36,184 nucleotides of DNA from Rhodospirillaceae bacterium (lineage in GTDB: Bacteria; Pseudomonadota; Alphaproteobacteria; UBA828), in NCBI GenBank assembly GCA_018666805.1, contig JABIXB010000160.1, positions 1 through 36,184 of the forward strand, read 5' to 3'. Positions 1,627 to 12,496 of the stretch are shown here, piece by piece. Below the pieces are notes generated by a model, which saw nothing but the letters and a program-made list of their open reading frames with translations, was not told where the DNA came from and did no database searches. The position numbers and the translations under genes were made by a program. Within the stretch, counting starts at the first letter, position 1. Every line of letters starts with the position of its first letter.

Positions 1627-2721
1627 TTAAGAGATACGGCGGCCCGTCTGGGGATCGAAAAACAGGATCGATTCCATATCGACATGCATCTCGACCTTGT
1701 CGCCGTCGGTGAATTCCTGCACGCCGGGGACGGTGAAAAAGAGGTCCACGCCGCCCAGATTTACGCCCACCGTGGTGTGCATACCGAGCGGTTCCATGTC
1801 GTTTACCGTGCCCGTTAAATGGGTTTCTGCCGAATCGGAGCCCACCATACGCACATGCTCGGGCCGCACGCCGATCTCGACTTCGCTGATGCCGGACGGC
1901 AGACCATGCTCCATCTGATCCGGTAACTTCATGTCCATGTTGCCTATTTTTAGGCTTGCCGTGCCATTATCACGCGTCAGGCGCGCCGGTATGATATTGA
2001 TCGGCGGGTTGCCGACGAAGCGCGCGACGTCACGGTCAACCGGCTCGTCATAGAGTTCCTGCGCCTTGGCGATCTGGCGCACCTCGCCGTCGATCAACAC
2101 GCAGACCGTATCGGCGAGCGCCAGGGCCTCGGTGTAATCGGGCGTGGCGAACAGGAACGTTCGGCCTGATTCCTGCTGCAAGCGCTTCAGCTCCGTTCTG
2201 AGATCGATACGCAGCATGAAATCGAGACTACTGAGCGGCTCGTCAAGCAGGTAAAAGCGCGGCTGGCGGATCATGGCGCGGCCCAAGGCAACGCGCTGGC
2301 GTTCGCCGCCACTGAAGGTCGCCGGCGTGCGCTCGAGGATATGGCCGATCTTCATCAGCTCGGCCATTTCCATAACGCGATCGTTGATTTCGCTTTTCGA
2401 TACTTTGGCAATTTTGAGTGGCGCGGCTATATTCTCATAGCCGGTTTTATTGGGATATAGCGCCAGATTATCAAAAATCATGGCGATATCGCGCTGGTTC
2501 GGCTGATGATTGGTGAAATCCATACCTTCGATGAAGACTTCACCTGAGCTTGGCGCTTCCAGTCCGGCAATGATGCGCAAGGTCGTTGTCTTGCCGGCGC
2601 CGGCCGGGCCGAGAAGAACGATCAGCGAGCCGTGCGGCACGGTGAGGTTGACATCCTTCAGGGCTTCGTTGCTGCCGAAATTTTTTGAAATCGAGCGTAG
2701 CTCGAGAACGGGCTCGCTCAT
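1627..2721 (-). CDS. CUT1-family ABC transporter ATPase with altered Q- and H-loops
   Basis: A 364-residue ATP-binding protein of the MalK/UgpC type: an N-terminal ATPase domain of about 240 residues and a C-terminal OB-fold regulatory domain (GVRPEHVR near residue 285). Walker A (GPAGAGKTT), ABC signature (FSGGERQRVALGRA) and Walker B (FYLLDEPLSSLD) are intact. Two switch positions are not. The Q-loop reads IFDNLALYP where the family has FQNYALYP, so Gln is Asp. The H-loop reads FATPDYTEA where the family has VTHDQ.EA, so the switch His is Pro. Its start overlaps the stop of the upstream ATPase in an ATGA, implying translational coupling and heterodimer assembly. It should sit on the cytoplasmic face of the transporter encoded just upstream. 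Confidence 0.92.
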   Translation of the reverse strand: MSEPVLELRSISKNFGSNEALKDVNLTVPHGSLIVLLGPAGAGKTTTLRIIAGLEAPSSGEVFIEGMDFTNHQPNQRDIAMIFDNLALYPNKTGYENIAAPLKIAKVSKSEINDRVMEMAELMKIGHILERTPATFSGGERQRVALGRAMIRQPRFYLLDEPLSSLDFMLRIDLRTELKRLQQESGRTFLFATPDYTEALALADTVCVLIDGEVRQIAKAQELYDEPVDRDVARFVGNPPINIIPARLTRDNGTASLKIGNMDMKLPDQMEHGLPSGISEVEIGVRPEHVRMVGSDSAETHLTGTVNDMEPLGMHTTVGVNLGGVDLFFTVPGVQEFTDGDKVEMHVDMESILFFDPQTGRRIS

Positions 2722-3827
2722 CGTCTGTCTCCACTGTCGAGTAAACGAACGCCTGATTCGGCATCGAAAAGCGCGACAAGATCGCTTACCGGCACGAGGT
2801 CAATAGAATCGCGCTCGACGGCCGGGTCGCCAGTCGGAACAATAACCTTTAGCGATGAATCGCCGAATGAAGCGGTGACCACCGTCTCCGGACCTTGCGG
2901 TTCGACTGCCAAAACCGGAACTGAGAATCGTCCGGGATCATCGGCGGCGGCCAAACTCAAACTCTCCGGTCGCACGCCAACGACAACATCCGCGCCGGCG
3001 GATACATCCGAGCCGAGATTGCCGGCCGGCAAGGGGATGGTCGAATCACCGGACGTCACAACCCGCCGGCCACCATCCTCCGCCAGCTTTCCTTTAAGAA
3101 AATTCATCGGCGGATTGCCGAGGAAGCTGCCAACAAAGCGATTGGCGGGATATTGGTAGACGTTATGGGCGGTGTCATATTGCTGCAGCGCACCGAAATC
3201 CATCACCGCGATACGATGGGCGAGCGACAGCGCCTCGATCTGGTCATGCGTTACGTAAATGATGGTCTGTCCGGTATCCGCCTGAATACGCCGCAACTCG
3301 CGCCGCATCTGGTTGCGCATCGCCGCCTCAAGGTTGCTGAGAGGCTCGTCGAGCAGCAGGATTTCAGGGTTTGTGACCAACGTCCGCCCGATGGCGACGC
3401 GTTGCAACTCGGACGCCCCCAATTCATCCGGCTTGCGGTCGAGCTGATGGGTGATCGAGAGGAACTCCGACACTTTGGCGATTTCCCGATCGATCTCCGG
3501 CTGTTTCATTTTGCGGACTTTGAGACCATAGGCAAGATTGCTGCGCACCGTCATATGGGTAAACACGGCATAATCCTGGAACACCAGACCGATATTGCGG
3601 TCACCCGGCGGGACATTCAGCACCGATTTACCGTCGATTAGAATATCGCCGCTGGTCGGCGCTTCGAGACCGACAATCATGTTCAGAATGGTCGATTTAC
3701 CGCAACCGGACGGGCCCAGCAGGGCCATTGTCTCGCTTTCCTCGATGGCGATGGAAACATCATCGACGGCGACAAGATCGCCGAATTCCTTACGTAGATT
3801 GACCAGTTCGAGCTTAATGTTTGCCAT
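2718..3827 (-). CDS. CUT1-family ABC transporter ATPase with degenerate signature motif
   Basis: A 369-residue MalK/UgpC-type ATPase. Walker A (GPSGCGKST), Q-loop (VFQDYAVFTHMTV), Walker B (ILLLDEP) and the H-loop (YVTHDQIEAL) are canonical. The ABC signature is not: LGASELQRVAIGR replaces the usual LSGGQ.QRVA. The D-loop reads SNLE instead of SNLD or SALD. The C-terminal regulatory domain is present (GVRPESLS near residue 290). It starts 6 bp after the permease stop and shares an ATGA with the next ATPase. Rhizobial glycerol-3-phosphate importers (GlpS/GlpT) are a known precedent for two ATPases in one CUT1 system. Its defect is the mirror image of the partner's, so the pair is expected to form one complete and one degenerate ATP site. 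Confidence 0.92.
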   Translation of the reverse strand: MANIKLELVNLRKEFGDLVAVDDVSIAIEESETMALLGPSGCGKSTILNMIVGLEAPTSGDILIDGKSVLNVPPGDRNIGLVFQDYAVFTHMTVRSNLAYGLKVRKMKQPEIDREIAKVSEFLSITHQLDRKPDELGASELQRVAIGRTLVTNPEILLLDEPLSNLEAAMRNQMRRELRRIQADTGQTIIYVTHDQIEALSLAHRIAVMDFGALQQYDTAHNVYQYPANRFVGSFLGNPPMNFLKGKLAEDGGRRVVTSGDSTIPLPAGNLGSDVSAGADVVVGVRPESLSLAAADDPGRFSVPVLAVEPQGPETVVTASFGDSSLKVIVPTGDPAVERDSIDLVPVSDLVALFDAESGVRLLDSGDRR

Positions 3828-5793: not shown

Positions 5794-6852
5794 CTACATG
5801 CCCCACTTATCCGCACCGGACGCTTTCTGCAACGCTGACGGATACATCCCGGCAAGAGCGCGCCACGCCTCGATCTGGGTGTCTTTGCCCAGACGACGGG
5901 TGATGCGGTTTTGCTCTTTCGCTACGTCTTTCATGGCTTCCGCCGGAGTCTTCTGCCCGTTGTAAGCCGCCTGCAGGTTAATATCCAAGGCGTTGTGATA
6001 TTCCGAGCCGCCGCGCAGGATGATTTCCGGCACGCAATCGACCACGGCCTCGAACGAGGTCGCAAGGAAATCGCCAGGATAGGAAGCATAGAACTCAGGT
6101 GACGGATCGAGGAAGTGGTTGTTACGCCACGGATCGAAATAGCCGCCTTCGTTCGGAATCGAGCGCATCGACATGGTCGGGCCGGTGAGCCACTGCGCAT
6201 AGAGATAGGCAACTTCCGGAATTTCGGAATGGTTGTTGACGACAAAATCCCATGCAAACGGCATCACGTCGGCGCGGATCAGCTCGCCATTCACCATATC
6301 GCCCGGCACTTTCGAAATACCGGTCTGGCTCGGCTGGCCATTGGCATCCACGCCGGCAATGATCGACTGTGCGCCCTCGGCGTCATGGCTATAGCGCCAC
6401 AGTGACGGCCAACCGAACTGGAAGAAACCACGGCCGGCCGCATAATACTGGGCATAGTTCTCGGTGAAGCCGTAGTTAAACTGCTCTTTCGGCATATAAT
6501 CCTGAATCGCAACAAGATCCTCAACGGTCTTGATACTCTCCGGGCTATCGGCCATCGACTTCATGTCTTTGTCGAAATAGAGCTTGCCCTTGGATTGGAA
6601 ACGGGTCATCCAATGGAACTTGTTCCAGAACGGCGAGCGATATTCCAAGGCGCCCCAGAAATCATTGCCCTTGTCAGTCATATCGGCGGCGAGTTGGTCA
6701 TATTCCGCCCAGGTATCGACAACGGCGCGTTTTGATTTCGGCGATCTGCCGGCTTCCGCCAATTTATCCTTGCGGTAATTGAGCAGCCACCAGTCACCAT
6801 CGCAATAGAGGCCGTAGATCTTGCCCTTATATTTCTGGCCAAAATCCGACAC
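5794..6852 (-). CDS. solute-binding protein, C-terminal part of a frameshifted gene
   Basis: This ORF encodes about the last two thirds of an extracellular solute-binding protein (family 1, carbohydrate type). The listed start is a GTG, and the reading frame is open further upstream as LVAKYDPEVFDGPNKLEYPV, directly continuing the protein whose N-terminus lies in another frame at 6907-7403. The two parts join at 6906-6907. Features include the ligand-cleft stretch YGLYCDGDWWLLNYRKDKLAEAG and a C-terminal helical lobe. The rejoined protein would be about 535 residues, long for CUT1 binding proteins but within the range of the larger ones. It would act in the periplasm, delivering substrate to the permeases encoded just downstream. 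No ribosome-binding site suits the internal start, so I do not treat it as an independent gene. Confidence 0.85.
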   Translation of the reverse strand: MSDFGQKYKGKIYGLYCDGDWWLLNYRKDKLAEAGRSPKSKRAVVDTWAEYDQLAADMTDKGNDFWGALEYRSPFWNKFHWMTRFQSKGKLYFDKDMKSMADSPESIKTVEDLVAIQDYMPKEQFNYGFTENYAQYYAAGRGFFQFGWPSLWRYSHDAEGAQSIIAGVDANGQPSQTGISKVPGDMVNGELIRADVMPFAWDFVVNNHSEIPEVAYLYAQWLTGPTMSMRSIPNEGGYFDPWRNNHFLDPSPEFYASYPGDFLATSFEAVVDCVPEIILRGGSEYHNALDINLQAAYNGQKTPAEAMKDVAKEQNRITRRLGKDTQIEAWRALAGMYPSALQKASGADKWGM

Positions 6853-7403
6853 CGGATATTCGAGCTTGTTGGGGCCGTCAAAGACTTCCGGGTCATACTT
6901 GGCGACCAGTCCGTGAGATCATGCGCGAGGCCGGATTCGGCGTAATCAGGCAGGCTCAACGGCGCCGGCAGCATCAGGTCATAACGACCGGTCTGGGCAA
7001 CAGCTTCCTGCATGCCCTTTTGATGGGTCTGCGTCACCGGCACCTCGATCAGCTCAACGTCGAAGCCGGTCAAAGCTTTCCACTCGGCCGTGAACGGCGA
7101 CATGTTACCGCCGGAGCCCGACGGATGCATGATCGAGATGGTTTTCTTCTTCGCGCCGGCATACATCGCCTTCGCTGCCTTGGCAGCACGATCTTCCGGT
7201 GTGGCGCCTTCAACCGCCCAAGCGCGCTTTACGCTGAGCGGGGCTTTCTTCATGATCATGGAAATGGCGGTGGCGCTCAGGCCAAGGCTCGCCATACCCT
7301 TCATCAGATCACGGCGCGATACTTTGAAGTCGCGCGACATGTGCATGCCCCAGAGCCGATGCAGCTCTTTGACCATTCTTAATTTCTTATCCGCGTGTGA
7401 CAT
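6678..7403 (-). CDS. solute-binding protein, N-terminal part with Tat signal (frameshifted)
   Basis: About 165 residues of genuine protein (7403 to about 6907) followed by out-of-frame residues to a stop at 6678. I chose the ATG at 7403 because GGGAG lies 9 nt upstream; the in-frame ATG at 7409 would leave only 3 nt. The leader has a twin-arginine motif, VSRRDLMKGM at about residues 28-37, followed by a hydrophobic stretch, so the folded protein should be exported by the Tat system. The mature region begins with KKTISIMHPSGSGGN. In-frame sequence ends at GLAHDLTDW; adding one G there (TGG-GTC for TGGTC) continues smoothly into the 5794-6852 frame. This could be a real mutation or an assembly error; the intact downstream frame favours error or a very recent lesion. 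Confidence 0.82.
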   Translation of the reverse strand: MSHADKKLRMVKELHRLWGMHMSRDFKVSRRDLMKGMASLGLSATAISMIMKKAPLSVKRAWAVEGATPEDRAAKAAKAMYAGAKKKTISIMHPSGSGGNMSPFTAEWKALTGFDVELIEVPVTQTHQKGMQEAVAQTGRYDLMLPAPLSLPDYAESGLAHDLTDWSPSMTRKSLTAPTSSNIRCRILARNIRARSTASIAMVTGGCSITARINWRKPADRRNQNAPLSIPGRNMTNSPPI

Positions 7404-7547
7404 ATTCATTTCTCCCTTTAGCTCTGGCGGCCCGCGCCGCATCCCTGCGTCCGGGCCACCGGCAATACTCAGTTGATCTCGCCGCCTCGCCGCCGACAAA
7501 CAAAATCGACAACGCCACGGCGACCGAATTTTTCCAGACGCGGGAGG

Positions 7548-7666: not shown

Positions 7667-8503
7667 TCACCGCTTTATCGCCCCCAGGGTAAAGCCGCGC
7701 GCCAGATGTTTGTGAATCACCAAACCAGCGATAACGATCGGTAGCGCCGCAACCGTTGCCAGCGCCGCCTGAATACCGAATGCCCCGTTATAGAAATTAA
7801 TATTCACCGGAATGGTGATAACGGTCTTTTCCGAGAGCACCATGGCGAGGAGAAATTCGCTCCAATTGAGAATGAAAATAAACAGCCCCGTGGCGATCAC
7901 GCCACCCTTCGCCAGCGGCAGGGTAACGCGGATATGCGCCGCCCAACGCGACATCCCATCCATCATCGCCGCTTCCTCGATCTCCGCCGGAATCTCGTCA
8001 ACGAAGCTCTTCAGCATCCAAAAGGCGAAAGGTGCGGTAAAGACAACATAGGCAAGGATCAGCCCGGCATAAGTGTCACGCATGCCGAGCAGGCCGAATA
8101 GGATCAGGAACGGAATGGCGATCACCACCGTTGGAATGCCGCGCACCGAGAGAATGGCGAGCGCCATCGTATGGCCACCGGCGCGGTAGCGCGAAAATCC
8201 GATTGCCGCCATGCCGCCGATAATGAGAGAAATCAAGGTGGCGATGCTCGAGACAATGAGTGAATTGACCATGGCGATCCAGGAAGCGCCGTTGCCCGTC
8301 ATGTAAACGCCTTTGAATTCTATCAGCAGCGGCCCGTAGTTCGCCCAGGAGGCCTGGCTCGATATCCACACCGGCGGTGTCGCCGCCCATTCAAGCGTCG
8401 GCTTGAATGATGTCGAGACCATCCAGAATATCGGAAAAAGAGCGAAAAGAAGGCCGGCCACAAGGGCCAGAAAATGGGGCCAACGAAAGGGTTTGTGCAG
8501 CAT
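7667..8503 (-). CDS. second MalG-type CUT1 permease (paralogue)
   Basis: A 278-residue permease clearly paralogous to the one at 3834-4769. Shared stretches include GLLFA.FPI.WMVSTSFK, the coupling loop EIEEAAMMDG.SRW.AH, FIFILNWSEFL and the C-terminus LTLGAIKR/FTLGAIKR. It lies upstream of the binding protein, separated from it by 263 bp with its own putative promoter, and has no MalF-type partner of its own here. It could replace the other MalG subunit in an alternative transporter or be a duplicate left after rearrangement. The start at 8503 is forced, because an in-frame TAA immediately precedes the ATG. No clear ribosome-binding site is seen; the 18-bp tandem repeats begin 5 bp upstream. 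Confidence 0.9.
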   Translation of the reverse strand: MLHKPFRWPHFLALVAGLLFALFPIFWMVSTSFKPTLEWAATPPVWISSQASWANYGPLLIEFKGVYMTGNGASWIAMVNSLIVSSIATLISLIIGGMAAIGFSRYRAGGHTMALAILSVRGIPTVVIAIPFLILFGLLGMRDTYAGLILAYVVFTAPFAFWMLKSFVDEIPAEIEEAAMMDGMSRWAAHIRVTLPLAKGGVIATGLFIFILNWSEFLLAMVLSEKTVITIPVNINFYNGAFGIQAALATVAALPIVIAGLVIHKHLARGFTLGAIKR

Positions 8504-9422: not shown

Positions 9423-11078
<1,656 letters not shown>

Positions 11079-11080
11079 TC

Positions 11081-12496
11081 ATGGCAATCGATTATAATGA
11101 ACGCATTCCCAACAATGTGGATCTGGCCGATAACCGGCGGCTGAAGCGCGCGCTTGAAAATTGGCAGCCCGGCTATCTCAATTGGTGGGCTGAAATGGGG
11201 CCTGCGGATTTCGACCAGGCCGATGTTTATCTCCGCACCGCGATCTCGGTCGACAAGGATGGCTGGGCACATTTCGGCCATGTCAAGATGCCGGACTATC
11301 GTTGGGGCATTTTCCTCGCCGAGCCGGAAGCCGGCCGGCGCATTGCCTTCGGCGCGCACAAAGGCGGAGCTGCATGGCAGGAGGTGCCGGGCGAACACCG
11401 CGCAACGCTCAGGCGCCTAATTGTCACCCAAGGCGATACCGAGCCGGCGAGCGTCGAACAGCAGCGCCTCCTCGGCCTGACCTGCCCGTCACTTTACGAT
11501 CTGCGTAATCTCTTTCAGGTCAATATTGAGGAGGGTCGCCATCTCTGGGCTATGGCCTATCTGCTGCACGCCCACTTTGGCCGCGACGGGCGCGAAGAAG
11601 CCGATGCGCTTTTGGGGCGGCGCTCGGGCGATGTCGACAAGCCGCGCATTCTCGGCGCCTTCAATGAAGCGACACCGGATTGGCTGTCGTTTTTCATGTT
11701 CACCTTCTTTACCGACCGGGACGGCAAATATCAGCTCGCCTCGCTCGCCGAATCGGCCTTCGACCCGCTCGCCCGCACCTGCCGCTTCATGCTGACGGAA
11801 GAAGCGCACCACATGTTTGTCGGCGATACCGGCATCCAGCGCGTTGTTCAGCGCAGTTGCGAATTGATGAAAGAGCACGATACCGACGATGTCGCGCCGC
11901 TTGGCGGCGTCAATCTCGCCACCATCCAGCGCTATCTGAATTTTCACTTCGCCGTTTCGATCGATCTGTTCGGCTCGGAATTTTCCACCAATGCGGCCAA
12001 TTATTTCACCACCGGCCTGAAGGGACGTTACCGGGAAGAGAAGATCGAAGACGACCATGTACTGTCGGAATCGTCTTACGGTGTGGCCAAACTTGAAGGC
12101 GACGCCATTGTCGAGAGCGACGAGGCGGCGCTCACTGTCATCAATGAGCGCCTGCGCGACGATTATGTCGAGGATTGCGAAAAAGGCATGGCGCGCTGGA
12201 ACCGCACCCTCCAGGAACAAGGTATCGACTTTACTCTGCGTATACCGCACCGCGCCTTCCAGCGCGCCATCGGCCAATATCGCGACACGCATTTCACCCC
12301 TGAGGGCAAGAAAATCAGCGCCGAGGAATGGGCGGCACGCCAAGACGAATGGCTGCCGAGCGCGGCCGAACGGGCGCATGTCATTTCGCTCATGCAACGC
12401 GTTGTCGAACCCGGTAAATTCGCCGGCTGGATCGCACCGCCACGGCGCGGTATCAACGGCCAGCCGCTCGATTTCGGGTATGTTCACTTGAGCTAA
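11081..12496 (+). CDS. boxB: BoxB-like benzoyl-CoA 2,3-epoxidase (diiron oxygenase)
   Basis: A 471-residue protein of the expected BoxB length. Two diiron ExxH motifs are visible, EEGRH with Glu151/His154 and EEAHH with Glu241/His244. Glu121 and Asp212 fall at the remaining ligand positions, each one residue off the numbering I recall for Azoarcus BoxB. The enzyme inserts one oxygen atom into benzoyl-CoA to give the 2,3-epoxide and needs electrons from a reductase (BoxA in known systems), which is not in this window. ATG start, 2 bp after boxC. The following gene begins after a strong GGAGAAAAA leader, continuing the operon. Confidence 0.93.
   Translation: MAIDYNERIPNNVDLADNRRLKRALENWQPGYLNWWAEMGPADFDQADVYLRTAISVDKDGWAHFGHVKMPDYRWGIFLAEPEAGRRIAFGAHKGGAAWQEVPGEHRATLRRLIVTQGDTEPASVEQQRLLGLTCPSLYDLRNLFQVNIEEGRHLWAMAYLLHAHFGRDGREEADALLGRRSGDVDKPRILGAFNEATPDWLSFFMFTFFTDRDGKYQLASLAESAFDPLARTCRFMLTEEAHHMFVGDTGIQRVVQRSCELMKEHDTDDVAPLGGVNLATIQRYLNFHFAVSIDLFGSEFSTNAANYFTTGLKGRYREEKIEDDHVLSESSYGVAKLEGDAIVESDEAALTVINERLRDDYVEDCEKGMARWNRTLQEQGIDFTLRIPHRAFQRAIGQYRDTHFTPEGKKISAEEWAARQDEWLPSAAERAHVISLMQRVVEPGKFAGWIAPPRRGINGQPLDFGYVHLS

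Follow-up and report, generated by a model that had tools for sequence, protein, structure and literature searches.

Complementary motif defects in the paired ATPases of a CUT1-type importer operon predict a single hydrolysing ATP site

The typical CUT1 importer has one ATPase, which forms a homodimer with two identical ATP sites (PMC11519228). An operon in the 36,184-nucleotide stretch of DNA analysed here (the window; Rhodospirillaceae bacterium, assembly GCA_018666805.1, contig JABIXB010000160.1) encodes two MalK/UgpC-type ATPases, A and B, with defects in different motifs, and the question it raises is whether such an importer works with a single competent site. Both reading frames were confirmed on the minus strand, as are the motif, permease (P1 and P2) and binding-protein features described below: A (369 aa) lies at 2718..3827 and B (364 aa) at 1627..2721, with the start codon of B inside a four-base ATGA overlap with A. 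Upstream are a MalG/UgpE-like permease, P2 (3834..4769), and a MalF/UgpA-like permease, P1 (4772..5746), both recognised by PF00528 and by the order of the orthologous operons, then a gene for a substrate-binding protein (SBP_bac_1; 5794..7412), located by domain match and tblastn. In this assembly the binding-protein gene is split over two frames by a change near 6867-6906, which is either an assembly error or a real break; in relatives it is a single open frame (eg L036:1074-2765, 564 aa). An additional MalG-like permease gene, 51% identical to P2, lies upstream of it at 7667-8503. That gene is also present in two of the related genomes (G001 and G003) and was not detected in the remoter orthologous operons. 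Directly downstream of B there is an asparaginase-like gene (554-1555), a linkage seen only in the window's genus. Beyond the operon, on the opposite strand, are the aerobic benzoyl-CoA epoxidation genes boxC and boxB (9423-12496), called with scores well above the NCBIfam cut-offs.

The class of the two proteins was established from their domains and their gene neighbours. A and B are only 34% identical and are distinct ATPase genes. The best NCBIfam model for both is UgpC, at 347 and 330 bits, respectively, scores which fall below the model's cut-off of 432. PF00005 and OB_MalK are above their cut-offs in both proteins (51.5 bits in A and 29.5 in B for OB_MalK), as is TOBE_2 in B, giving each a C-terminal OB/TOBE regulatory domain, and the nearest solved structures are MalK-type ATPases. 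The CUT1 ATPase motif G[IV]RPE[DH] (PMC11519228) is matched by B (GVRPEH), while A (GVRPES) differs at the last position. Two different permeases and a binding protein of the SBP_bac_1 type complete the CUT1 picture.

Residues were numbered by alignment of A and B to a canonical MalK-type ATPase. Both subunits have intact Walker A and Walker B motifs and an intact catalytic glutamate. In A, Walker A reads GPSGCGKST (K44), and Gln84 of the Q-loop (FQDYAV; 3576..3578), Glu161 of Walker B (LLLDEP; 3345-3347) and His194 of the H-loop (YVTHDQ; 3246..3248) are all present. Its signature, at residues 136-140, is the degenerate LGASE (3408..3422), which still ends in glutamate, and its D-loop, at residues 164-167, is SNLE (3327..3338), with Glu167 replacing aspartate. 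B has the reverse arrangement. Walker A (GPAGAGKTT, K44), the signature FSGGE (residues 136-140; 2302..2316), Glu161 (YLLDEP; 2239..2241) and the D-loop SSLD are intact, but Asp84 replaces the Q-loop glutamine (FDNLAL; 2470..2472) and Pro194 replaces the H-loop histidine (FATPDY; 2140..2142). The initial annotation, made from the window alone, had read the motifs in this way, and the alignment confirmed it in every detail.

In MalK-type dimers the D-loop of the subunit that donates the signature faces the same site as that signature. More generally, an ABC dimer site combines Walker A/B and the Q- and H-loops from one subunit with the signature contributed by its partner (PMC7756269). If A and B dimerise head-to-tail, the site formed by the body of A and the signature and D-loop of B (site 1) is canonical throughout. 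The site formed by the body of B and the signature and D-loop of A (site 2) would hold all the defects, ie aspartate for glutamine, proline for histidine, LGASE for LSGGQ and SNLE for SNLD, while retaining the catalytic glutamate and both Walker motifs. A complete site would arise only in the A-B heterodimer, since two copies of A would lack an intact signature and two copies of B an intact H-loop. The reading we favour, with a probability of roughly 0.78, is that A and B form an obligate head-to-tail heterodimer of one CUT1-type importer, in which site 1 hydrolyses ATP and site 2 does so slowly or not at all.

The importer would then consist of the binding protein, P1, P2, A and B. Hydrolysis would take place at site 1, with Walker A/B and the Q- and H-loops supplied by A and the signature and D-loop by B. 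Site 2 probably still binds ATP, because its Walker motifs are kept; lacking the H-switch, the Q-loop glutamine and a proper signature, it would be slow in hydrolysis or inactive. Because B keeps its catalytic glutamate, which most degenerate exporter sites have lost (PMC7756269), slow turnover at site 2 is conceivable. Nucleotide bound there would help to close the dimer, as has been proposed for asymmetric exporters, and import would be powered by a single ATP hydrolysed per cycle, at site 1. From the motifs, their conservation, gene linkage and purifying selection, all seen directly in the sequences, we infer the heterodimer, the nucleotide occupancy of site 2 and one-site hydrolysis, and with Walker A/B and Glu161 present in both subunits the single working ATP site is a prediction.

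The pattern itself is conserved well beyond this genome. Orthologues of B were found in 15 related genomes (59-93% identity), and orthologues of A in the same genomes, except G004 and G016, where B sits at the end of a contig. A phylum-wide scan of 399 genomes, in which five candidates per genome were scored, gave no further orthologue of B. In the related genomes A has LGASE or LSASE with SNLE and the histidine, and B has Asp, Pro and FSGGE. More distant pairs, from Rhizobium sp. ACO-34A, Phaeobacter gallaeciensis, Alisedimentitalea scapharcae and Paenirhodobacter enshiensis, show LGGSE or MGGSQ as the signature of A, again with SNLE, and in B either Asp or Glu alongside Pro. (The Rhizobium locus also has glutamine synthetase-type genes.) The initial annotation had suggested testing whether the Q- and H-loop changes co-occur with the signature change in adjacent homologous pairs, and had stated that all defects sort into one composite site. 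Both hold: the defects are divided in this way in 16/16 complete orthologous pairs, so that the sorting is evolutionarily fixed. Of the two outcomes that it named as refuting, neither was observed: none of these pairs is canonical in both subunits, and there was no sign of two transporters with homodimeric ATPases. The operon order SBP-P1-P2-A-B is conserved, and dN/dS for A and B is 0.03-0.13, similar to the permeases, which indicates purifying selection. Judged from these sequences, the complementary pattern is not one of chance or decay: it is retained in every complete pair, A and B are found together, and dN/dS is low.

The alternative that fares best is an A-B heterodimer in which both sites hydrolyse ATP, the odd residues being tolerated and marking subunit-specific docking to P1 and P2. 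It is consistent with the intact Lys44 and Glu161 of both subunits, with the terminal glutamate retained in the A signature, and with the existence of two-ATPase pairs whose motifs vary only a little (LSGGD or LAGGD with LSGGE). We nevertheless consider it unlikely, since the H-loop histidine of B is absent from every orthologue, those same operons encode a partner without an intact signature, and the losses are confined to one composite site. That A and B serve two different transporters, each as a homodimer, is very improbable. CUT1 importers are typically one-ATPase homodimers (PMC11519228) and an extra permease gene lies close by at 7667-8503, but each homodimer would be without a complete site, the two genes are always adjacent and co-occurring, here with the ATGA overlap, and each operon has a single binding protein and a single P1/P2 set. 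The idea that constraint on one of the ATPase genes has relaxed and the gene is decaying, for which the lost catalytic motifs and the frameshifted binding-protein gene of this assembly might be cited, is scarcely credible and was rejected on the dN/dS of both genes, the invariance of the motifs across distant orthologues and the single open frame of the binding-protein gene in relatives.

A and B were also placed among two-ATPase CUT1-type loci gathered from pattern matches, DUF2160-linked loci (DUF2160 being the marker used to find glycerol importer loci) and the genomes of relatives. Loci were collected without selecting on partner motifs, and the partner signature was never used as a criterion. 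The contig pattern scan gives a lower bound, ie the arrangement is at least as widespread as the loci found. Of 109 scorable pairs, 69 were canonical in signature and H-loop. Both defects were present in 34, in opposite subunits (trans) in all 34, and a double defect in the same subunit was seen in 0/109. The 34 are not independent, as they come from a handful of lineages which may share ancestry: the window's family (16), GlpST (11), a family with LSEGE or LAEGE and SRLD opposite LSGGE and ATPDQ (6, with an additional pair in G022) and Candidatus Caldatribacterium (1). A signature defect alone occurred in 4/109 pairs and an H-loop defect alone in 2/109. One of the search patterns (ATPD[YF]TEA) selects proline, and the proportion of pairs with H-loop defects should therefore not be read as a frequency. 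Stand-alone ATPases, taken as homodimer controls, were canonical at signature and H-loop in 54/54 cases, seven of them having glutamate in the Q-loop. The few unpaired defective ATPases belong to two-ATPase loci whose partner lies beyond the end of the contig or of the fetched region.

The recurrent element is loss of the signature, with the D-loop, in one subunit and loss of the H-loop histidine in the other. This part of the layout given in the initial annotation extends to other families; the Q-loop part does not, Asp or Glu being confined within this layout to the window's family, while glutamine is kept in GlpS and in the LSEGE/ATPDQ family. Single CUT1-type ATPases with a Q-loop glutamate (FEN) and all other motifs intact are found in many genomes of the window's family (L203 and L205-L210). 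Two further two-ATPase pairs, from Hwanghaeella (L130:11870-14223) and from G019 (L204:3430-5837), have glutamate in both Q-loops, proline in one H-loop and LSGGA opposite, and represent another asymmetric variant.

The glycerol importer GlpSTPQUV was described in Rhizobium leguminosarum VF39 (Ding et al. 2012, as cited in PMC7912956), and the Ruegeria glycerol importer is SPO0608-0612 (PMC9870897). The gene order in Rhizobium sp. NXC14 (L211), ie glpR-like, glpD, ATPase, ATPase, permease, permease, DUF2160, SBP, glpK, matches the layout reported for VF39 (PMC7912956). NXC14 GlpS has LSGGQ and ATTEP, the histidine being lost, and GlpT has LTADQ and TVID with the histidine present. All 11 complete DUF2160-linked pairs agree, with LTADx and histidine in GlpT, and LSGGQ with histidine changed to Thr or Ser (ATTEP or ATSEP) in GlpS. 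In the tree A and B are not orthologous to GlpS and GlpT but fall in separate, well-supported clades. No solved structure of GlpS was found, the best structure matches being generic MalK-type ATPases.

The trees are compatible with one or with several origins of the layout. The A subunit of the window and a group of ATPases with the signature LSVNE are sisters (support 100/98). In the LSVNE pairs one subunit has the signature defect and its partner is canonical with an intact histidine. This half-way state weighs somewhat against the reading we favour, and it suggests that loss of the signature can be the earlier step. The window's own genome carries a second two-ATPase CUT1-type locus, of the LSVNE type (L175, G000:C229:30000-34500). 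The H-defective subunits form one clade in 41% of bootstraps, and a single clade of signature-defective subunits is not rejected (p-AU 0.164). We offer only tentatively, at somewhat less than even odds, the reading that complementary loss of signature and histidine is recurrent, with several independent origins (the window's family, GlpST, the LSEGE/ATPDQ family and Caldatribacterium), signature loss possibly coming first, and that such importers hydrolyse one ATP per cycle, their second site acting as a structural ATP clamp.

The amount of ATP used per substrate, and the need for two hydrolysing sites in ABC importers, have been argued mainly on the basis of symmetric models, for example MalK2. 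CUT1 importers in which an intact site is naturally paired with a broken one offer a direct test without engineered mutants, and a genetically tractable glycerol importer belongs among them. The asymmetric design familiar from exporters also exists in MalK-type importers.

With the CUT1 importers of the maltose and sn-glycerol-3-phosphate type, the window operon shares the ATPase fold with its OB/TOBE domain and the classes of permease and binding protein, but it has two ATPases with complementary defects in place of a single homodimeric one. As in heterodimeric exporters where one site is degenerate (TAP1/2, TM287/288, MRP1 and CFTR; PMC7756269), the defects of the A-B pair all lie in one composite site. 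Those exporters, however, usually lose the catalytic glutamate (PMC7756269), whereas A and B both keep Glu161 and are encoded with importer permeases and a binding protein. Importers with one degenerate ATP site have been reported in the CUT2 class (RbsA and NupO; PMC11466899), which differ in their fused halves, in loss of the Walker A lysine and in belonging to another importer class. A literature search covering few subscription journals found no paper reporting a complementary or degenerate-site layout in CUT1 importers, GlpST included. GlpSTPQUV differs from the window operon in its remote ATPases (roughly 140-220 bits in comparisons with A and B), in the Q-loop glutamine retained by GlpS, and in its linked genes: DUF2160, glpD/glpK and glpR were not found beside the window operon, whose neighbours are asparaginase-like and box genes, and DUF2160 had no match in the window's genome. 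Like the window operon, it combines two MalK-type ATPases with a binding protein and two permeases, with the signature and D-loop altered in GlpT and the H-loop histidine lost in GlpS. The initial annotation knew of no described CUT1 importer with this layout; it is in fact present in a genetically characterised one, GlpSTPQUV.
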